Below, piece by piece: positions 1,133 through 15,907 of a DNA stretch of 49,704 nucleotides (position 1 is the stretch's first letter; each line of letters begins with the position of its first letter). Location: NCBI GenBank assembly GCA_005887995.1, contig VBJD01000084.1, positions 1 through 49,704 of the forward strand. Direction: 5' to 3'. This stretch comes from Chloroflexota bacterium (lineage in GTDB: Bacteria; Chloroflexota; Limnocylindria; P2-11E). The notes beneath the pieces were generated by a model that saw only the letters and a list, made by a program, of their open reading frames with translations, was not told the DNA's origin and did not search any database. Made by a program: the position numbers and the translations under genes.

Positions 1133-1437
1133 TCCAGCAGTTGCGCATCTACGAGATCTTCGAGCACAACAAGGCGGCGTTCCACGCGCGCTTCCGCGAT
1201 CACGCGATGAGGATCATGAAGCGGTACGGCTTCAACATCGTGTCGATGTGGGAGTCGCGAACAGGAGAGCGGACCGAATTCGTCTACCTCTTGACGTGGC
1301 CGGACCTCGCAACGAAGGAAGAGGCGTGGCGGCGCTACCTCGCTGATCCGGAGTGGGTCGAGATCAAACGCGTCACGAAGGCGAAGTACGGCGACCTCGT
1401 CGGCGAGATCGAGGATCGCGTCCTCGAATCCGTCTAG
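1129..1437 (+). CDS. NIPSNAP-family protein
   Basis: This 102-residue protein begins MIQQLRIYEIFEHNK and contains HAMRIMKRYGF and a tryptophan-rich middle (LLTWPDL, EEAWRRYLADPEW). That is the pattern of NIPSNAP single-domain proteins, which fold as dimeric alpha-beta barrels. Their biochemical role in bacteria is not settled; many sit in catabolic or housekeeping operons. The GTG start overlaps the stop of the permease by four bases, and the stop at 1437 abuts the rsmI start directly, so the genes are probably co-transcribed and translationally coupled. Confidence 0.8.
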   Translation: MIQQLRIYEIFEHNKAAFHARFRDHAMRIMKRYGFNIVSMWESRTGERTEFVYLLTWPDLATKEEAWRRYLADPEWVEIKRVTKAKYGDLVGEIEDRVLESV

Positions 1438-2109
1438 TTGGGCAAGCTCTATCTCGTCGCGACGCCGATCGGCAACCTCGAGGACGTCTCGCCGCGCGCG
1501 CTGCGCGTGCTGCAGGAGGTGCACATGGTCGCCTGCGAGGACACGCGCCACACGCAGATCCTCCTGCGCCGCTACGACATCCGCGCGAAGCACCTCACCT
1601 CATACAACGAGTTCAATCACAAGCGGAAGGTCGCGGAGCTCGTCGGGCAGCTGGGGCGGGGCTGGGACGTCGCGCTCGTCACAGATGCGGGCACGCCCGG
1701 GCTCTCCGACCCCGGGGAGCAGCTGGTGCGGGCCGCGATCGGAGCCGGACACGATGTCGTGCCCGTGCCCGGGCCGGCCGCAGCCATCGCCGCGCTCGTC
1801 GCGTCGGGCCTGCCGACCCGCGAGTTCACGTTCGTCGGTTTCGTCGAGAAGAAGAGCGGCCCGCGCCGCCGTCGGCTCGAGCGGCTCATCGCTGAAGGAC
1901 GCACCGCGGTCCTCTACGAGAGCCCGTATCGCGTCGGCGATCTTCTGATGGATCTCGCCGCGGTCGCCCCGCACGCGCGCGTCGTCGTCGCGCGCGAGCT
2001 TACGAAGGTCCACGAGGAATTCCGACGTGGCACTGCAACGGAGCTCGCGGCCTACTACGCCGACCATCCGCCGAAGGGCGAGGTCACGATCGTCGTTTCT
2101 GCCGCGTAA
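1438..2109 (+). CDS. rsmI: 16S rRNA (cytidine(1402)-2'-O)-methyltransferase RsmI
   Basis: RsmI 2'-O-methylates C1402 in the decoding centre of 16S rRNA using S-adenosylmethionine. All family blocks are present in order: LYLVATPIGNLEDVS at the N-terminus, ACEDTRHT, the SAM loop VTDAGTPGLSDPG, VPVPGPAA and a GFVEKK/YESPYR block. At 223 residues it is shorter than the roughly 270-290 residues common in the family, lacking the small C-terminal extension; the tetrapyrrole-methylase-type core is complete. The start is TTG 1438, the first codon after the NIPSNAP stop. Confidence 0.95.
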   Translation: MGKLYLVATPIGNLEDVSPRALRVLQEVHMVACEDTRHTQILLRRYDIRAKHLTSYNEFNHKRKVAELVGQLGRGWDVALVTDAGTPGLSDPGEQLVRAAIGAGHDVVPVPGPAAAIAALVASGLPTREFTFVGFVEKKSGPRRRRLERLIAEGRTAVLYESPYRVGDLLMDLAAVAPHARVVVARELTKVHEEFRRGTATELAAYYADHPPKGEVTIVVSAA

Positions 2110-7052: not shown

Positions 7053-7841
7053 CTAGGCGCGCTCCGGCGCGAGCGCGTGCCGCACGTCGTTCTTCCCGGC
7101 GCGCTTGGCGTCGAGCAGCGCGTCGTCAGCGCGCGCTATGAGCTCGTCGAGGTTCGGGCCGAACGACGGATACGTCGCGACACCCGCCGAGACGGACAGC
7201 GGCTCGCCGATCCCCATGGACAGCGCCGCGACGGTGCGGCGGATGCGTTGCACGATCCGCTCGGCCGCGGCGTCGTCGCATTCGTTCAGCAGGAGGATGA
7301 ACTCGTCGCCGCCGTAGCGGGCCGCGATGTCCGACGCCCGGAGGCTCGCGCGCACCGCGGTCGCCACGAGCCCGAGGGCGCGGTCGCCGGCCGGGTGCCC
7401 GTGCGTGTCGTTCACGCGCTTGAACCCATCGAGGTCGAGCACCGCGATCGCGAGCAGCGCGCGCTCACCGGCGGTGACGATGCGCGCTTCCGCGAGCGCG
7501 CGGAAGGTCCGGACGTTGTAGAGCTGCGTCATTGGATCGCGCTCGGCGGCGGCCTGGAGGCGCCGCAGTTCATCTCGGTCGGCGCCGTACAGGTAGACGA
7601 AGCCGGTGCCGAGCAGCGCGGCGGTCGCCACTTGGAAGACGTCGGCGATGTCGCCCCGGCCGATCTCGAGCGCGTCGAGGACCGCGTGTACGACGAGCGT
7701 GACCGAGGCGCCGGCGAAGAAGAGCCATGACCTTCCGCGCGACGGTCGACCGCCGCTGCGCAGGCTCGAGACCGTGAGGGCGAGGATCGAGAGCGCGAGC
7801 GCGACGTTCGCCGCTTCGGTCAGTGTGTGGAGTCCCACCAC
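7053..7841 (-). CDS. Membrane-anchored diguanylate cyclase (GGDEF)
   Basis: This enzyme should make cyclic di-GMP from two GTP. The 262-residue model starts at GTG 7841, which has a GGGGAGG site 10 nt upstream; the ORF track runs much farther into non-coding sequence. Three hydrophobic segments fill residues 1-86, followed by DPMTQLYN (the DxLTxLxN-type entry of the domain), LDLDGFKRVNDTHGH, the active-site loop YGGDEF (177-181) and an allosteric I-site RASD exactly five residues before it. The I-site implies product inhibition. It is transcribed divergently from the protease at 8046 and lies near an HD-GYP phosphodiesterase. Confidence 0.9.
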   Translation of the reverse strand: MVGLHTLTEAANVALALSILALTVSSLRSGGRPSRGRSWLFFAGASVTLVVHAVLDALEIGRGDIADVFQVATAALLGTGFVYLYGADRDELRRLQAAAERDPMTQLYNVRTFRALAEARIVTAGERALLAIAVLDLDGFKRVNDTHGHPAGDRALGLVATAVRASLRASDIAARYGGDEFILLLNECDDAAAERIVQRIRRTVAALSMGIGEPLSVSAGVATYPSFGPNLDELIARADDALLDAKRAGKNDVRHALAPERA

Positions 7842-7980
7842 GTACGCGACGCCTCCCCGCGAGTTCCGTACACCCTCGTACGCAGTGCGCACCAGGTCGT
7901 CACAGCGACGTATCAGACACGGACGACGCTCACAAAACGGGCATCTCCGATCTGCCGCTGATACACGTGGAGCAGCGAAT

Positions 7981-8031: not shown

Positions 8032-8045
8032 GGGGGAGCGTGGTC

Positions 8046-9770
8046 GTGGATCGGTGGCTTCGTCCGAGCCGTAGGGTCATGCACTGGGCGTGCGCGGTGG
8101 TGGTGGCCGTCGCGCTCGCGGAGACAACGTGGACGCCGGTCGCCGACGCGTCGTCCGCGAAGGCGCTCCAGCGAATCGATCCCGCGCTCTTCGCTCAGGC
8201 GAAGTCGCACCCGACGACCCTCTTCGACGTCATCGTGCAGGGTGCCCCGGATCGCAAGCGCGTCGACGCCCGTGAGAAGGCGAGATCCGTCGATCGTGCG
8301 GGCAAGGCCGTCCAAGAGGCCGGCGGGAGTCCGCGGCGCGCGCTGGGCATCATCGGCGGCGCGTCGGCGAAGGTCCGTGGCTCCGGGCTGATCACCCTCG
8401 CGAACGACGACGACGTCGCCTACATCTTCGCCGACGCGGCGCTCAACGCGAAGTTCGACCCGCAGACCGGCGCTTCGCTCGTCACCGGCGCGGGGACGCT
8501 CACCGTCAAGGCGCCGGCCACGTGGTCGCAGTACGGCGTCACCGGCCGCGGCATCGCGGTCGCGGTGATCGACAGCGGCATCTATGCGCATCGCGATCTC
8601 GCCGGACGCATCGTCGCGGCGATCGACTTCACCTCGGCGTCGCCGACCGTGTCGGCGACGCCGCTCGGCGATCCCGGCGGTCACGGCACGCACGTCGCAG
8701 GCCTCATCGCCGGCGACGGCACTGCCTCAGATGGCGCCTACACCGGCGTCGCTCCGGGCGCGAACCTCGTCGACGTGCGAGTGATCAACGCGAGCGGCGC
8801 GTCGAACGTCTCGACCGTCCTCGCGGGTCTGCAGTGGGTCCTCTCCAATCGCGCTCGCTACAACATCCGCGTCGCGAACCTCTCACTGGGCACGCCGGAG
8901 CAGACGAGCTACACGCTCAGCCCGCTCAGCGCGGCGGTCGAAGTGCTCCAGTACGCGGGCGTCAGCGTCGTCGTGTCCGCGGGCAACAGCGGTCCGGGCG
9001 CGGGCACGATCACGGCCCCCGGTGATGACCCGTTCGTCATCACGGTCGGCGCCGCCGACGACAACCGCACGAGCACGCTCGCCGACGACTCAGTTGCGGC
9101 CTTTTCGTCGGCCGGACCGACGCGCTACGACTCGCTCGCGAAGCCGGACGTCGTCGCACCTGGCCGCAGGATGGTGAGCCTGCGCTCGCCGGGTAGTGCG
9201 CTCGACGCGCTCCTGCCGGATCGCCAGGTCACCGCGTCGGGTTCGCCGACCGCTGAGTACTTCACGCTTTCAGGTACGTCGATGGCTGCCCCGATGGTCG
9301 CGGGGGCCGTCGCGCTCCTTCTCGAGCGCGATCCGACGCTCACGCCGCGTGAGGTGAAGCAGCGCCTCCTGTCGACCGCGGCGCCGCTGTCCTTCGGGTC
9401 GCGGTACACGCGCGGCGCCGGCCTGCTCGACACACTCGCCGCGGTCGCGTCCACTGATCACGGCGGCTGGAAGGATCGTTCGCGCGTGTCCGACGGCTTC
9501 GCGCAGATGGTGCTGCCGCTCATCTACGGCACCACGCTCACCTGGGAGGACGCGACGTTCAACGGTGGTGTCGACTCGAAGGGACGCCCCTGGACGCAGC
9601 TCACCTGGAGCGACATCACTTGGGACAACCTCACCTGGGATGCGATCTCGTGGAACGACATCACCTGGGAAGGCATCACCTGGGACTCCGTCACGCAGCA
9701 GGACATCACGTGGGAGACGACCTTCGATCCATTGAGCAGCAGCGGTCCGGGCTGGGGACCCCTGGACTGA
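8046..9770 (+). CDS. Secreted subtilisin-like serine protease (S8) with Trp-pentad tail
   Basis: The protein of about 574 residues has a signal peptide, a propeptide-like region and a complete S8 domain: catalytic Asp in AVIDSGI (about 176), His in GGHGTHVAG (about 213), the oxyanion Asn in SAGNSG and Ser in GTSMAAPM (about 412). I place the start at GTG 8046 because the GGGGGAG site lies 7 nt before it; GTG 8040 is too close. The last 70 residues are unusual: Trp occurs every five residues (ITWDN-LTWDA-ISWND-ITWEG-type units) before a short Gly/Pro end. It probably acts outside the membrane. The next gene is 11 bp downstream. Confidence 0.92.
   Translation: MDRWLRPSRRVMHWACAVVVAVALAETTWTPVADASSAKALQRIDPALFAQAKSHPTTLFDVIVQGAPDRKRVDAREKARSVDRAGKAVQEAGGSPRRALGIIGGASAKVRGSGLITLANDDDVAYIFADAALNAKFDPQTGASLVTGAGTLTVKAPATWSQYGVTGRGIAVAVIDSGIYAHRDLAGRIVAAIDFTSASPTVSATPLGDPGGHGTHVAGLIAGDGTASDGAYTGVAPGANLVDVRVINASGASNVSTVLAGLQWVLSNRARYNIRVANLSLGTPEQTSYTLSPLSAAVEVLQYAGVSVVVSAGNSGPGAGTITAPGDDPFVITVGAADDNRTSTLADDSVAAFSSAGPTRYDSLAKPDVVAPGRRMVSLRSPGSALDALLPDRQVTASGSPTAEYFTLSGTSMAAPMVAGAVALLLERDPTLTPREVKQRLLSTAAPLSFGSRYTRGAGLLDTLAAVASTDHGGWKDRSRVSDGFAQMVLPLIYGTTLTWEDATFNGGVDSKGRPWTQLTWSDITWDNLTWDAISWNDITWEGITWDSVTQQDITWETTFDPLSSSGPGWGPLD
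9591..9713 (+). repeat. 15-bp period coding repeat: W every fifth residue
   Basis: The 3' end of the S8 gene carries imperfect tandem 15-bp units encoding [I/L]-[T/S]-W-[D/E/S/N]-x. Tryptophans fall at ORF-track residues 518, 523, 528, 533, 538, 543, 548 and 558, with Gln taking the place of Trp at 553. The strict period suggests a regular extended or beta-solenoid surface rather than a random linker. Confidence 0.85.
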
Positions 9771-9781
9771 GGAGGAGAACG

Positions 9782-11161
9782 ATGACGAAGACACGTTTCG
9801 CGGCTCTCTACATCTGGACGGTGGTGCTGGGAGGCACGATCTGTTTCGTTCTCAACTCTCTCTCCGTCAAGCCAGCCTCGTCACTCGACCCGGTGATGTT
9901 CGTCTTCCTCCTGACGCTCGCCGGCATCGCGCAGCGCAATCCGGTCCGCCTCTTCCGTTCGAGCGCGATCTCGGTGGCGTTCGCGGTGAAGATCGCGGCG
10001 TACGTGCTCTTCGGCGTGAGCGTCGCCCTGTGGGCGAACCTCGTGGTCGTCGGCGTGAACGCGGTCACCCCATCGCCGAAGCCCGTGCGCAAGGTCCTCT
10101 TCAACTTCGGCCAGCTGAGCCTCTCGACGTTCGCCGCGGCGACGGCGTACCAGATCGTCGGCGGGGAGGTGCCGCCGGGCGCGGTCGTGCCGACCATCCT
10201 GGCCGTGGCGGTCTCGGGCGCGGTCTACTTCCTGTCGAGCTCGTTCATGACCTCGCTCGTCATCGCGCTCACGAGCAACGCGCGCTTCATCGAGACCTGG
10301 AACCGGAACTTCAGCTGGATGCCGGTGAACTACATCGCGACGGCGATCAACGGCGCCGCGCTCGCGCTCGCGTACCAGTCGATGGGCCTGTTCGGTGCCC
10401 TCGTCTTCGTGCTCCCGCTCGGCATCGCGTGGTACTCGTTCAAGCTGTACATGAGCAAGTCGACCGAAGTGCGCGCTCGAGTGAGCGAGCTTCAGGTCAC
10501 GAACGAGGTGCTCGCGCGAACGAACCAGCGTCTTGAGGAGTCGCACCTCTCCGTCATCGGCGCGCTCCTCGGCTCGCTCGAGGCGAAGGACCGCTACACC
10601 GAGGGCCACTCAGCGGCGACGATGTTCCACGCGGTCGCCGTCGCGAGGCGGCTGGGCCTCGGGCCCGACGAGATCGCGGCGGTCCAGCTCGGCGCGCTGT
10701 TCCACGACATCGGCAAGATCGGCGTGCCCGACGGCATCCTGCGCAAGCCGGACCGCCTGACCGACGACGAGTGGACCGAGATGCGGCTGCACCCGCTCAT
10801 CGGCGCGAACCTCCTCGCGCACGTGCCGAACCTCGAGAAGGTGCGTCCGATCGTTCTCGCGCACCACGAGCGCTACGACGGCACGGGCTACCCGAACCGC
10901 CTCTCAGGGAGCGAGATCCCGCTCGCGGCGCAGATCATCGCCGCCGCCGACGCGTTCGAGGCGATGACCTCGACGCGGCCGTACCGGCCGGCGATGTCAC
11001 GCGAGCTCGCGCTCGCGGAGCTGTGCGCGGTCGCCGGCAAGCAGCTGAGCCCGCTCGTCGTGGACGTCTTTGTCGACGTCCTGCGCGAGGATGTGGGTAC
11101 GACGCAGGAACACGAGAGCGTGTACCAGCAGGCCGTTCAGGCGGTGCGAGCGACCGGCTAG
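9782..11161 (+). CDS. Membrane HD-GYP cyclic di-GMP phosphodiesterase
   Basis: The start is ATG 9782, directly after an AGGAGGAG site; the track start at 9620 lies in the S8 gene. The 459-residue protein has several membrane helices in residues 1-222 (MASE-like sensor region), a coiled-coil linker at 225-255 and an HD-GYP domain. Its metal and catalytic marks are intact: EGHS, HDIGKIG (308-314), HHERYDGTGYP (361-371) and DAFEAMTSTRPYR. It should hydrolyse cyclic di-GMP to GMP. Coupling to the S8 protease and proximity to a GGDEF gene suggest a local cyclic di-GMP output. It converges on the M28 gene with only a few bases between. Confidence 0.93.
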   Translation: MTKTRFAALYIWTVVLGGTICFVLNSLSVKPASSLDPVMFVFLLTLAGIAQRNPVRLFRSSAISVAFAVKIAAYVLFGVSVALWANLVVVGVNAVTPSPKPVRKVLFNFGQLSLSTFAAATAYQIVGGEVPPGAVVPTILAVAVSGAVYFLSSSFMTSLVIALTSNARFIETWNRNFSWMPVNYIATAINGAALALAYQSMGLFGALVFVLPLGIAWYSFKLYMSKSTEVRARVSELQVTNEVLARTNQRLEESHLSVIGALLGSLEAKDRYTEGHSAATMFHAVAVARRLGLGPDEIAAVQLGALFHDIGKIGVPDGILRKPDRLTDDEWTEMRLHPLIGANLLAHVPNLEKVRPIVLAHHERYDGTGYPNRLSGSEIPLAAQIIAAADAFEAMTSTRPYRPAMSRELALAELCAVAGKQLSPLVVDVFVDVLREDVGTTQEHESVYQQAVQAVRATG

Positions 11162-11166
11162 GGCGG

Positions 11167-12612
11167 CTAGGGTCCCTCGCCTCGCGCGAGGTCAAGCGCG
11201 ACCGCGCTGACGACGTCGCCCGCGCGCTGCAGGTGACGGAGGTCGACCTTTTCGACGGTGTCCTTCGTCGTGTGCAGGATGTAGTCGCTCCAGAGCACGA
11301 GGATCGCAGGCACGCCGCGACGCGAGAACGGCTGCTGGTCGCTCCCGCCACCGCCGACGCCGTTGAACGGCACGCCGGCGCGCGACGCGGCCGCGCGGAA
11401 GCGGTCCTGGAGCGCGCGCGATTCGTTCGTCGCCTCGAGGATCTCCCCGCAGCAGCCAATGACATCAAGGTTGATCATCGCGACGAGGCTCTCGACGCGG
11501 CCGGGGCTCGAGGACATCCGCGCGATGTACGACTCGGACCCGAGGAAACCCTCCTCCTCGCCCGCGAACGCGACGAAGATCACCGAGCGCTTGAGCTCCG
11601 ATCTGTGCGCGGCGAGCACACGCGCGACCTCGATCGTGATCGAGGGCCCAGAGGCGTTGTCGTTCGCCGCCGCGAAGACCGTCCCGTTCGGATCGGTCCC
11701 GACTCCGTCGAGGTGTCCGCCGATGAGGACAGCGCGAGCCGCGTCGGTCCCGCTCGCGCGAAGGAGCCCGACGACGTTCGACGCCATCACCTGATGGACC
11801 GGCGTCACCGGCACGCTCATCTGAATGTTCGTGTCGACGGCGAAGCCGACATCGAGCGTGCTCGTGTTGCTACGCCGCGCGCGCACGGCGTCGCGGACCT
11901 GCGTGACGGTCTTTCCCGACGGCGCGAGGAGTTCGTTCGCGGTCGTCTCGCTCACGACGAGCATCGGGATCGTCTGCGCGAACTGCTGCGCGATGTATGA
12001 GTACTTGATCGTCGGCTCGCCGACGACGAGGATCCCTAGGCCACCGCGCTGCACGATGTTCTCCTGGTACCCGGTCACCGTCGGGCCGGTCACGAGGGCG
12101 ATGCGTCCCTTCACGTCGACGCCGGCGAAGTCATCCTGGCCGCCCGTCGCTGCGCCGCCGCCGACGACCGCGAGCTTCGCATCCGCGCTCCCATTCCCTG
12201 CGCGGCCGCCGATGCTCTCGGTGAAGTCGACGCGATGCGTCCACGTCTTCGCGTCGGCGCCGGTGCGGCTGAGCGTTGGAGTGCCCGCGAGGTCGACGAT
12301 CTGCACCGGAAAGCGCTGGAAGTACGTGCCGTTATCGCCAAGCGGCTCGAGGCCGATCTCCTTGAAGCGCTCCGCGACGTACTGCGCGGCCTCTTCGAAT
12401 CCAGGCGATCCGGTGAACCGGCCGCCGCGGGCCGGATCGGCGAGGTAGGCGAGGTGCTGGTGCGCCCTCTCGCCGTCGAAGCCGAGCGCCGCCGCGCTCT
12501 CCGGGCTCGCGCTCGCGGCCACCGTCGCGGACGCCACCGGCGTGCTCGGCGCGGGCATCGCGGGCAGCGATGCGCACGAGACGAGAGCGAGCGCGAATGC
12601 GAGATACCTCAC
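11167..12612 (-). CDS. M28-family aminopeptidase lipoprotein with PA domain
   Basis: This 481-residue exopeptidase starts at GTG 12612, overlapping the stop of the upstream fusion gene by four bases. A lipoprotein signal ends at LVSC, so it is anchored outside the membrane. A PA-type insert (GRIALVTGPTVTGYQ...) precedes the two-zinc M28 core: GGHLDGVG (His), ANDNASG (Asp), AFAGEEEGFLGS (catalytic Glu and zinc Glu), INLDVIGCC (Asp) and LHTTKDT (final His). All ligands are present. It should trim N-terminal residues from peptides. It closely parallels the peptidase half of the neighbouring fusion gene, implying duplication. Confidence 0.9.
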   Translation of the reverse strand: MRYLAFALALVSCASLPAMPAPSTPVASATVAASASPESAAALGFDGERAHQHLAYLADPARGGRFTGSPGFEEAAQYVAERFKEIGLEPLGDNGTYFQRFPVQIVDLAGTPTLSRTGADAKTWTHRVDFTESIGGRAGNGSADAKLAVVGGGAATGGQDDFAGVDVKGRIALVTGPTVTGYQENIVQRGGLGILVVGEPTIKYSYIAQQFAQTIPMLVVSETTANELLAPSGKTVTQVRDAVRARRSNTSTLDVGFAVDTNIQMSVPVTPVHQVMASNVVGLLRASGTDAARAVLIGGHLDGVGTDPNGTVFAAANDNASGPSITIEVARVLAAHRSELKRSVIFVAFAGEEEGFLGSESYIARMSSSPGRVESLVAMINLDVIGCCGEILEATNESRALQDRFRAAASRAGVPFNGVGGGGSDQQPFSRRGVPAILVLWSDYILHTTKDTVEKVDLRHLQRAGDVVSAVALDLARGEGP

Positions 12613-14987
12613 TCGGCCGCACCCATTTCGAGGAGCGCCTGCACGACGACCTCGCCGGATTCCCGCAGGCGCTTTGGATCGATCGAGGCCGGCGTGTCGC
12701 CGGTGGTGTGGAAGGGGCCGAGGTCGGTCGGGCCGACGCTGATCGCCGGCACCCGCCGGCGCAGCCACGACGCGTGATCGCTGGCGCCGATGAGCGGTGT
12801 GTATTCCAGGTCGTAGCCGAGCCGCTCCGCGGCTGAGCGCAGACGGTCGTGCAGCGAGAAGTTCTCATCCGACGCGGCGAGGCCACCGCAGCAGCCCTCC
12901 ATGTCGAGGTTGATATAGGCGACGACGTTCTCCGGCCGGTACGGCTTGGTGATGGAGTTCTGGACGAAGACTTCCGAGCCCACGAGCCCCTCCTCCTCAC
13001 CGGAGAACGCAGCGAAGACGAAAGAGTTCTTCAGCATCGCGCGGTGCTGCGCCAGCACGCGCGCCACCTCGATGATGACGGCCGGCCCCGAGCCGTTGTC
13101 GTTCGCGCCGGGGAACACCGTGCCGTTCGGATCCTTGCCCACGCCGTCGAGGTGCCCTCCCACGATGAGGTACTTCTTCGCGCGCTCCGGATCCGTTCCC
13201 GGCAGGAGGCCAACGACGTTCATCGTGTCGACCTCCTCGACGGGCCCGAGCGGAACGGAGACACGCACACGCGTGTCCGTGTCGAAGGACAGCGGCTCGG
13301 GTACGACGCGTTGCAGGCTCGGGCGCTCGCGAGCGCGGCGCTGACGTTCCTCAAGGGTCTTGCGCAGATCGCCGATCTGCTTGCCCGATGCGGCGATGAG
13401 CTCGTTCGCCACGGCCTCGCTGATCACGATCGAGGGCAGCGTGTCTTTTTCGAACGCGGGGATGGGGGAGAACTTGATGATGCCAACGGGCGCGTCGCTC
13501 GCCTGCACGAAGATGACCCCCTTCGCGCCTTCGCGGATCGCGATGTCGATCGGGTCGCCCTGCGTGGGCCCAGCGATCATCACGATGTTCCCCTCGGGAT
13601 GCACGCCGGCGTAGTCGCTGTACTCCGGCGTCTTCACACCGCCGCCGACGTACACGACGTTGCCCTCCGCGGTGCCGCCGGCGGCACGTCCGCCGACCCG
13701 CTCGGTGAAGTCGACGCGGTGCGTGAACGACTTCGCCTCCGCGCCGGTGGTCTCGAACGTCGGCGTCGCGGTGATGCGCACGACCGACTGCTTGAAGCTC
13801 TGGAAATACGAGCCAGTCTCGAGCGGCTGAAGGCCGATCTCCTTGAAGTGGTCGGCGACGTACTGCGCGGCGGCGACGTAGCCCGGCGAGCCGCTGAATC
13901 GTCCCTCGCGCGCCGGATCGCCGATGTACGCGAGGTGCTGCGCGGCACGCGGCGCATCGAACGAGCGGGCGATCGGCACATAGGAGCCCGCGGGCCCGAG
14001 CATCGGCGTGACGACGCGCATCGCGACGAGGACGGCCGCGAGGGCGGCAAGGGTGCGCCACGACAGGACACGGCCGAGCGCGATCGGCGTCCGCTCGAAC
14101 ATCGTGCGCAGGCCGTGGCCGAGCACGTTGAAGCCGAAGACGGCGCTCGCGAACGCCGCGGCGGGAACGAGCGCGATCCACGCGGAGCTGTACACGGCGA
14201 AACGCCCGCCGGCCAGGATCGCGCCCCATTCGGCGCTCGAAAAGATGAACTGCGACCCACCGCCGAGGCCGCGGTCGTCGATCGGGATGCTGAAGCCGCC
14301 GCCCACGACGATGCCGAGGAACCCGAGCTCGCCGAGCGCGAGCAGGATCGCGCTCGCCTCGAGCGCGCCCGACACCGCGAGGATGGGCATGAGGTTCGGC
14401 AGGACGTGCCGCGTGAAGAGCGCGAACTCGGAGAGGCCGAGCGCGCGTCCGGCCTCGAGGAAGGGCCGGCCTTGCAGCGCGACGACCGCCGAGCGCGTCG
14501 CGCGGCCGAAGCCCCACCACCCCGTGATCGCGAGCGCGAGGACGAACGCGGAGAGGCCCGAGCGGATGTCGAAGGCGAAGATCCATAGGAGTGCGAACAA
14601 GATGGTGGGGAACGCAGCGAACGCGTCGATGAGCGCGGAGACGAGGCGATCGGCAGCACGCCCCGAGAACCATCCTGCGACGGCGCCCAGGGTCGTCCCG
14701 GTGACGAGACGCGCGAGGAGCACGGCGAACGCGATCGTCAGAGTGGCGCGCGCGCCGAACATGACCTCGACCCAGATGTCTCGGCCCGCGTTGTCCGACC
14801 CGAGGGGATAACCGAACTGGCCGGGCTCGAACGGTGGCGGGATCGTGCGGGTGCCGATGACGACGAACGACCGTGTCTTCAGCGGATCGACCGATGTCAA
14901 CAGCGGCGCGGCGAGACCCAGTACGAGCCAACCCATGACGATGAGCAGACCGACGACGAGCTGCCAGGTGATCGCCCGTCGGATCAT
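12609..14987 (-). CDS. Fusion: DppC-type ABC permease + M28 peptidase
   Basis: One uninterrupted frame of 792 residues joins two normally separate proteins. Residues 1 to about 310 are a peptide-type ABC permease (TM1 at VVGLLIVMGWLVLGLAAPLL, DNAGRDIWVEVMFGARATL, and the EAA loop EAGRALGLSEFALFTRHVLPN). A further hydrophobic segment (LAALAAVLVAMRVVTPMLG) then leads into a complete M28 domain with PA insert: GGHLDGVG, ANDNGSG, SGEEEGLVGS, INLDMEGCC, FHTTGDT. The start is ATG 14987, overlapping the DppB stop as ATGA; the track start at 15761 runs through the upstream gene in the wrong frame. The extra helix would place the peptidase outside the cell. Confidence 0.88.
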   Translation of the reverse strand: MIRRAITWQLVVGLLIVMGWLVLGLAAPLLTSVDPLKTRSFVVIGTRTIPPPFEPGQFGYPLGSDNAGRDIWVEVMFGARATLTIAFAVLLARLVTGTTLGAVAGWFSGRAADRLVSALIDAFAAFPTILFALLWIFAFDIRSGLSAFVLALAITGWWGFGRATRSAVVALQGRPFLEAGRALGLSEFALFTRHVLPNLMPILAVSGALEASAILLALGELGFLGIVVGGGFSIPIDDRGLGGGSQFIFSSAEWGAILAGGRFAVYSSAWIALVPAAAFASAVFGFNVLGHGLRTMFERTPIALGRVLSWRTLAALAAVLVAMRVVTPMLGPAGSYVPIARSFDAPRAAQHLAYIGDPAREGRFSGSPGYVAAAQYVADHFKEIGLQPLETGSYFQSFKQSVVRITATPTFETTGAEAKSFTHRVDFTERVGGRAAGGTAEGNVVYVGGGVKTPEYSDYAGVHPEGNIVMIAGPTQGDPIDIAIREGAKGVIFVQASDAPVGIIKFSPIPAFEKDTLPSIVISEAVANELIAASGKQIGDLRKTLEERQRRARERPSLQRVVPEPLSFDTDTRVRVSVPLGPVEEVDTMNVVGLLPGTDPERAKKYLIVGGHLDGVGKDPNGTVFPGANDNGSGPAVIIEVARVLAQHRAMLKNSFVFAAFSGEEEGLVGSEVFVQNSITKPYRPENVVAYINLDMEGCCGGLAASDENFSLHDRLRSAAERLGYDLEYTPLIGASDHASWLRRRVPAISVGPTDLGPFHTTGDTPASIDPKRLRESGEVVVQALLEMGAAE

Positions 14988-15907
14988 GCCGCGGCTCCCG
15001 TTGCGGCGTGCACGAAGCGCGCGGCGAGCGCGTCGAGCGAGAAGCGCACGATGGCGATCGTGACCGCAAGCGCGCCGAGCAGTGTGCCCGCGGTCGCCGC
15101 GTCGAAGCGGCGGATCGCCTGCAACAGCGAGAAGCCCAGTCCGGGCCACGAGAAGAAGACCTCGACGACGGGCAGCGTCGAGAGCGCGATCGAGAGTGCG
15201 GCCGCGACCGCGCCGAGGATCGGCACCGCGGCGTTGCGCAGCGCGTGACGGAAGAGGACGAGCCTCTCCATCAGCCCTTTCGATCGTGCGGTGCGCACGT
15301 AGTCGCTCATCAGCGTTTCGTCGACGGCGACGTACGTGAAGTTCGCGATCTGCGCGAACGGTCGCGCCGCGAGAACGACGACCGGGAGGATGAGGTGGTC
15401 GTCCCACCCGAAACCGAACGAGGGCCAGAGGCGGATGCCCCAGCGGCTGACCATGTTCGCCGAGAGCAGGATGAGGAGGATCGCGAGGAGGAACGAGGGC
15501 GTCGAGACGGCGAGCACCGTGACGCTGAGCAGGGCGCCCCGCAGACGCCGGCTCTTCGTCGCGGCGGCGGCGATGCCGACGAGCATGCCGAGCGCGGTCG
15601 CGATGAGCACGGCGAGGCCGACGAGCACCATGCTCTTCGGGTACGCGTCGAGAAGGACTTCGCCCATCGATCGGCGCCGCCCGCCGAGGATCGAGGTCGA
15701 CGTCGCCTCGCCGAGGCTGCCTTGCAGGAGGCTGCCGAAGTAGTCCTGCGTGCCTTCCCACGCACGGCGCACGATCTCGTCGAGGCCGAGGTGCTGGGCG
15801 CGTGTGCTCGCGGCAACGAGCGCGAACTGCGCGAGGACAACGATGAGGATGAAGGTGAAGAGGACGAGGACGATACGGGTGAGGATGCCGAGCAGAGCGC
15901 GGTTCAC
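14984..15907 (-). CDS. DppB-type ABC transporter permease
   Basis: The 307-residue protein is an oligopeptide/nickel-type permease: N-terminal helix ILTRIVLVLFTFILIVVLAQF, a long extracellular loop, then five helices with the EAA-like motif YVRTARSKGLMERLVLFRHALRN. I start it at GTG 15907 (MNRALLGILTRI), since the track's longer N-terminus is non-coding and antisense to metG. It pairs with the permease half of the downstream fusion through an ATGA overlap. No ATPase or binding protein is encoded next to it, so these must come from elsewhere in the genome. Confidence 0.88.
   Translation of the reverse strand: MNRALLGILTRIVLVLFTFILIVVLAQFALVAASTRAQHLGLDEIVRRAWEGTQDYFGSLLQGSLGEATSTSILGGRRRSMGEVLLDAYPKSMVLVGLAVLIATALGMLVGIAAAATKSRRLRGALLSVTVLAVSTPSFLLAILLILLSANMVSRWGIRLWPSFGFGWDDHLILPVVVLAARPFAQIANFTYVAVDETLMSDYVRTARSKGLMERLVLFRHALRNAAVPILGAVAAALSIALSTLPVVEVFFSWPGLGFSLLQAIRRFDAATAGTLLGALAVTIAIVRFSLDALAARFVHAATGAAA

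Follow-up and report, generated by a model that had tools for sequence, protein, structure and literature searches.

A tryptophan-pentad tail on a predicted secreted subtilase and its gene pairing with MASE9-like receptors in Chloroflexota and Actinomycetota

Introduction

What purpose is served by a tail with Trp at every fifth residue on a secreted protease? The question is raised by a gene in the window analyzed here, a stretch of 49,704 nucleotides on contig VBJD01000084.1 of a Chloroflexota bacterium. A sequence-only reading of the window had suggested that the tail is a solenoid binding carbohydrate or the cell envelope, or else an autoinhibitory or anchoring stack. We have examined the composition of the tail, its occurrence in other S8 proteases, its likeness to known repeats, and the genes that surround it. 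The protease and a membrane receptor encoded immediately downstream probably work as one signalling unit; that the tail docks the protease to this receptor is our guess.

Results

The protease and its tryptophan array

The assignment of the host protein to the S8 protease family in the sequence-only reading was borne out by the match to PF00082, which scored 181.6 bits against a cut-off of 21.8, and by an intact Asp-His-Ser triad, which was invariant across 32 homologues (Table 1). Searches of the window protein against Pfam and NCBIfam gave S8 matches only. The best NCBIfam match, the Type VII secretion mycosin (TIGR03921), was rejected, its score of 152.3 bits lying below the cut-off of 278.75; what mycosins and the window protease have in common is the S8 catalytic domain. 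The N-terminus resembled a signal peptide when read by eye, and a codon later than the GTG at 8040 may be the true start. A Foldseek search with a model of the whole protein returned subtilisins, the best of which was 3afg, and these matches do not inform the tail. The window assembly consists of 3.0 Mb in 231 contigs, its close relatives are Chloroflexi metagenome assemblies, and 3 of the 5 S8 genes in this genome carry the tail.

Table 1. Features of the protease locus (positions in the window)
Feature	Position	Strand	Evidence and remarks
GGDEF (diguanylate cyclase) gene, divergent, adjoining the protease gene	7056..7967	-	PF00990, 7.4e-38; start not fixed
Predicted secreted S8 protease (subtilase)	8040..9770	+	ORF; 576 amino acids from GTG 8040; PF00082, 2.7e-53
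Catalytic Asp, residue 178	8571..8573	+	invariant D139 in alignment A3
Catalytic His, residue 215	8682..8684	+	invariant H176 in alignment A3
Catalytic Ser, residue 414	9279..9281	+	invariant S375 in alignment A3
Conserved lead-in GTTLTWEDATFNGGVDSKG before the array	9528..9584	+	holds W502; W463 and G476 of alignment A3 nearly invariant
Trp pentad array	9585..9719	+	residues 516-560; nine pentads, eight Trp, one Gln
C-terminal cap	9720..9767	+	ends ...GWGPLD; Asp a frequent last residue among relatives
Gap between protease and partner gene, 11 bp	9771..9781	+	Shine-Dalgarno-like GGAGGAG
Partner gene, MASE9 and HD-GYP	9782..11161	+	PF13487, 7.8e-34; PF20972, 6.8e-12

The Trp codons of the array lie in a 15-nt register, at nucleotides 9591, 9606, 9621, 9636, 9651, 9666, 9681, and 9711, and encode residues 518, 523 and onward to 548, and 558, in exact steps of five, with Gln (unit VTQQD) filling the Trp slot at residue 553. 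Codon register and residue positions thus agree with the eight units, the exact five-residue spacing and the single replacement of Trp by Gln that had been read from the sequence. Seven of the units follow the pattern [I/L][T/S]W[D/E/N/S]x, to which the Gln unit and an opening RPWTQ unit are added, and an extra Trp, W502 in LTWED, precedes the array. The array was also said to end the protease; it does lie near the C-terminus, but 16 further residues, TFDPLSSSGPGWGPLD, follow the last pentad.

In the window protease, Trp recurs at step five without a break for 7 units at most. The best run was 5 among 20,000 shuffled versions of the last 90 residues, in which the composition of the segment was kept, and 4 when the whole protein was shuffled 20,000 times. 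In the DNA, the array forms a degenerate repeat of 15 nt, with 5.5 copies and 67% matches. Chance and a DNA-repeat artefact were ruled out as sources of the array by the shuffles together with the conservation described below.

Conservation of the tail in two phyla

Relatives of the protease were encoded at 69 loci, and tail arrays of 3 to 18 units were carried by most of the Chloroflexota and several of the Actinomycetota proteases; over all tails seen, the length ranged from 3 to over 20 pentads. In the alignment of the 32 homologues, which were 32% to 56% identical to the window protein, many of the Trp columns were invariant or nearly so. The consensus of the Chloroflexota tails was [I/V/L]-[A/T/S]-W-[D/E]-[S/N/G], and a tail profile matched 21 of 301 Chloroflexota genomes, where the loci that were read proved to be the C-termini of S8 proteases. 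The Actinomycetota S8 arrays contained units such as WSGAT, WTGAR, WRGVN, and WDGQR, with filler residues that differ from those in Chloroflexota; the G two residues after the W was imposed by the search pattern, part of whose matches fell outside S8 proteases, by chance or in other frames. A DNA pattern of five TGG codons spaced 15 nt apart, with no further constraint, was too noisy across Chloroflexota, the backward-read control also scoring in many genomes, and was discarded.

A profile search for the pentad in other S8 proteases had been proposed in the sequence-only reading, and tailed S8 proteases were indeed found in Chloroflexota and Actinomycetota. The same reading would have been given up had the tail not been conserved; the Trp columns are common to the homologues and the Actinomycetota subtilases have the same ladder, so that it does not fall on this ground. 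The strict Trp period, which had been taken for a rarity, is instead a lineage-wide trait and not peculiar to the window protease.

It was also noted that Asp was the last residue in 41 of 61 distinct tailed proteases (loci before L134), a count that includes near relatives and is not one of independent cases. At another locus (L095, region 1379-1673, minus strand), a tailed S8 protease with WGSVN units was followed by a frame for a short peptide with Trp at every fourth residue, MGSHTHAAITPVDTSVNWSVNW... A gammaproteobacterial S8 protease (L048, 1969-4650, plus strand) contained ten units of period six (GYLWTD), and genes for a response regulator-GGDEF-EAL protein and a Reg_prop protein came after it.

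Likeness of the tail to pentapeptide repeats

By its sequence, the tail fits a pentapeptide repeat in which Trp takes the core place of Leu or Phe, a fit that does not extend to every tail. Like the tail, the pentapeptide-repeat proteins (PF00805, PF13576, and PF13599; the SV2 luminal domain; PDB 2w7z) have a five-residue period and a constant core residue, but this residue is Leu or Phe rather than Trp. The window's own tail matched no repeat family and gave no pentapeptide-repeat hit in Pfam. The tail of one homologue (L021) matched Pentapeptide_4 at 7.9e-5, below the curated cut-off, with the Trp residues of the tail aligned on the Phe of the pentapeptide repeat; it also matched the SV2 luminal domain, for which the depositor annotation is SV2C. 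Two natural Actinomycetota tails, L201 and L193, scored over the Pfam pentapeptide cut-offs.

Idealized repeats gave matches that depended on register and on the order of the letters. An idealized VTWDN repeat matched Pentapeptide_4, whereas the same letters reordered as TVWDN, NDWTV, or DNWVT did not; VTLDN scored over the cut-off and VTADN gave no match; GATWSG and GVNWRG scored over the cut-off, and DSIAW and GSWTA gave no match. It is from these order-specific matches, of the tails and of the idealized controls, that we infer the likeness to a Trp-core pentapeptide repeat. A profile search of the PDB with the tails gave weak pentapeptide-repeat matches only (best E value 0.0024).

Structure prediction of the tail, which the sequence-only reading had called for, did not yield a confident fold; with regard to the quadrilateral beta-helix of pentapeptide-repeat proteins, the confidence of AlphaFold2 was low to moderate. 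In the AlphaFold2 model of the whole protein, pLDDT over the array was 70, 59, and 64 by tens of residues and fell below 50 in the last 24 residues, and one helical turn began at several of the array Trp residues. When the tail of the most regular homologue was modeled alone, pLDDT was 52 to 67 over the array and no regular structure was seen. The proposed solenoid has thus gained sequence support, in that the pentads match the pentapeptide profile in register and letter order, but not a confident AlphaFold2 solenoid.

Pairing with a gene for a MASE9-type receptor

A receptor gene 11 bp downstream of the protease gene is the strongest clue at the locus, and was absent from the sequence-only reading. 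The partner protein has 459 residues, its MASE9 (PF20972) and HD_5 domains both scored over the curated cut-off, and the motifs GHS, HDIGK, HHE, and GYP are intact. The divergent GGDEF gene on the other side of the protease gene may be a third element of the unit, adding the c-di-GMP synthesis side.

The partners downstream of tailed proteases elsewhere were MASE9-HD-GYP, MASE9-GAF-HD-GYP, and MASE-like GGDEF proteins; those of Actinomycetota joined a MASE-like region to histidine kinase, PAS, or SpoIIE domains. The N-terminal regions of the partner proteins aligned as one six-helix family, with identities down to 15%. The median distance from protease to receptor gene was 14.5 bp (quartiles 3 and 59). 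The second tailed protease gene of the window's genome, on contig C193, is flanked by two MASE9-HD-GYP genes, and MASE-like genes also lie on both sides of the tailed protease gene at two related loci (L015 and L016). At loci L119 to L123, two tandem MASE-like genes follow the tailed protease, the first of about 240 residues and with no recognized output domain. Further along the minus strand of the window, a 1050-codon open frame (12612-15761) joins an ABC permease domain (PF00528) to an M28 aminopeptidase domain (PF04389), possibly as a peptide-cutting and import fusion, or through a missed frame or start; it adjoins a second M28 peptidase gene (11170-12768, minus strand).

To compare tailed and untailed proteases, the S8 genes of 20 genomes were collected whether or not they encode a tail, and non-duplicate loci with enough downstream DNA were retained. 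A MASE-like domain was encoded within 400 bp downstream of 22 of 25 tailed and none of 22 untailed S8 genes, counts that are not genome-wide frequencies, the genomes having been picked for carrying tails or MASE genes. Fisher's p value was 1.6e-10, which is no test of correlated evolution because the tail and the pairing are mostly of one origin, with 1 to 2 independent pairs. This control replaced a first 2x2 table that was set aside as biased, as it had taken in loci fetched through MASE9. The MASE-like profile had itself been derived from the genes that follow tailed proteases; without the six loci that were also among its seeds, 16 of 19 tailed S8 genes still had the domain, and the first-round profile already found 21 of the 22 loci. 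Seen from the receptor side, a tailed S8 gene was located directly upstream in 15 of the 30 MASE9 loci of the class; these were the 15 closest to the MASE domain of the window, and the other 15 had no S8 gene.

On the S8 tree, the tail called for 2 changes and the MASE link for 8, and the 1 to 2 independent pairs left a pairs test with no power. A single ancient event, long maintained and with several losses, seems to lie behind both the tail and the pairing. Exceptions included a paralogue clade with WDSIAWDS tails, which had no adjacent MASE gene and in which OmpR-type response regulator genes followed two members, one of them the third tailed protease of the window's genome. The exceptions also took in loci L190, L198, L199, and L201, where no MASE gene was adjacent, and several loci of Actinomycetota were among them. 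Furthermore, the window's genome contained additional MASE-like genes with no tailed S8 gene seen alongside, and on account of these an action in trans may be possible.

Discussion

We give an even chance to the explanation that the predicted secreted, triad-intact subtilase with its Trp ladder and the downstream MASE9-type receptor form a two-gene signalling unit in which the tail would dock the protease. The argument for function rests on a gene order retained in two phyla while the outputs change, and not on the p value. Since the outputs vary and the protease and MASE domain stay, the input role most likely falls to the MASE domain, which would read the protease or its tail. A docking role is suggested by the constancy with which the tail marks the paired proteases. 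The tail, as a putative Trp-centred pentapeptide repeat, would hold the protease against the cytoplasmic membrane on its outer side, at the MASE domain or next to it, and protease activity, cleavage state, or tail occupancy would be passed through this domain to the output, which would be c-di-GMP turnover here and kinase or phosphatase activity elsewhere.

Other roles for the tail are conceivable. Were the tail a solenoid whose stacked Trp residues grip polysaccharide of the cell wall or matrix and so retain the protease at the envelope, the receptor gene would be a regulatory neighbour without contact to the tail. A conserved aromatic ladder among variable filler residues agrees with this idea, as does the pentapeptide-repeat fit, but the tails tested matched no known carbohydrate-binding family and polysaccharide binding alone leaves the conserved adjacency of a membrane receptor unexplained, so we hold it unlikely. 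Somewhat less probable again is a flexible, Trp-rich tether at the lipid interface with no fold of its own. Such a tether would be in keeping with the low-confidence, irregular tail-only AlphaFold2 model and with the Wimley-White interfacial sums, which were favourable for 84% of the 80 tails and averaged -0.54 kcal/mol per pentad; yet the sum is unfavourable for some tails (+0.54 per pentad in L200), the net charge of the tails spans -17 to +4, and nothing in a loose tether calls for a strict five-residue period maintained in two phyla or for an order-specific pentapeptide fit.

A C-terminal propeptide or inhibitor, removed in maturation or after secretion, appears very improbable. The position of the tail would suit it, and the Asp that ends many relatives after the array could be a processing signal. 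However, an I9-like N-terminal propeptide seems already to be present, as judged from the sequence and from a model that aligns with pro-subtilisin structures, and a length of anything between 3 and over 20 pentads also speaks against this role.

Returning to the two-gene unit, we advance a wider proposal with more doubt than confidence: in a surface-protease signalling system that Chloroflexota and Actinomycetota would share, the ligand of a MASE9-like receptor may be a Trp-centred pentapeptide solenoid borne by a secreted subtilase, and a single protease-tail module would then drive c-di-GMP enzymes, histidine kinases, or SpoIIE phosphatases. If true, the tail as ligand would give MASE9-like domains their first known input. 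Membrane input domains of the MASE type occur widely among c-di-GMP and kinase receptors, and MASE1-type domains were listed among those without known purpose in a 2022 review (PMC8846402). A protease with a conserved tail beside a MASE9-like receptor, with outputs that change, provides a concrete candidate input for these domains, and the tails offer a natural set of pentapeptide-like repeats with a Trp core. We found no description of the tailed subtilase-MASE9 pairing in the literature searched, which was open-access and left most subscription journals outside, and no paper on a ligand or partners of MASE9 in that open-access literature. The parts are of known kinds, and their combination appears to be undescribed.

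The nearest comparisons are LapG-LapD of Pseudomonas fluorescens and DvhG-DvhD of Desulfovibrio vulgaris, in which a protease is under the control of a c-di-GMP receptor in the membrane (PMC13090378). As in the window pair, LapG-LapD couples an extracytoplasmic protease genetically to a membrane protein with c-di-GMP domains (PMC13090378). However, LapG belongs to another protease family than S8, the system has no Trp tail, and LapD combines a LapD/MoxY periplasmic domain with HAMP-GGDEF-EAL whereas the receptor of the window is MASE9-HD-GYP; membership was rejected on the protease family and the receptor architecture. DvhG-DvhD is also made up of a protease and a membrane HD-GYP receptor (PMC13090378), but DvhG is a calcium-dependent protease of the BTLCP type with its own transmembrane segment, and DvhD senses through dCache and PAS domains rather than MASE9; with HD-GYP in common but protease family and input domain different, membership was rejected here too. 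The window pair is thus analogous to both systems and a member of neither, and perhaps works alike. By the same analogy, a reverse flow in which the receptor restrains the protease, as LapD does LapG, is possible. A signalling unit of this kind would add two further phyla to those with protease-receptor pairs like LapG-LapD, built there from unrelated parts.
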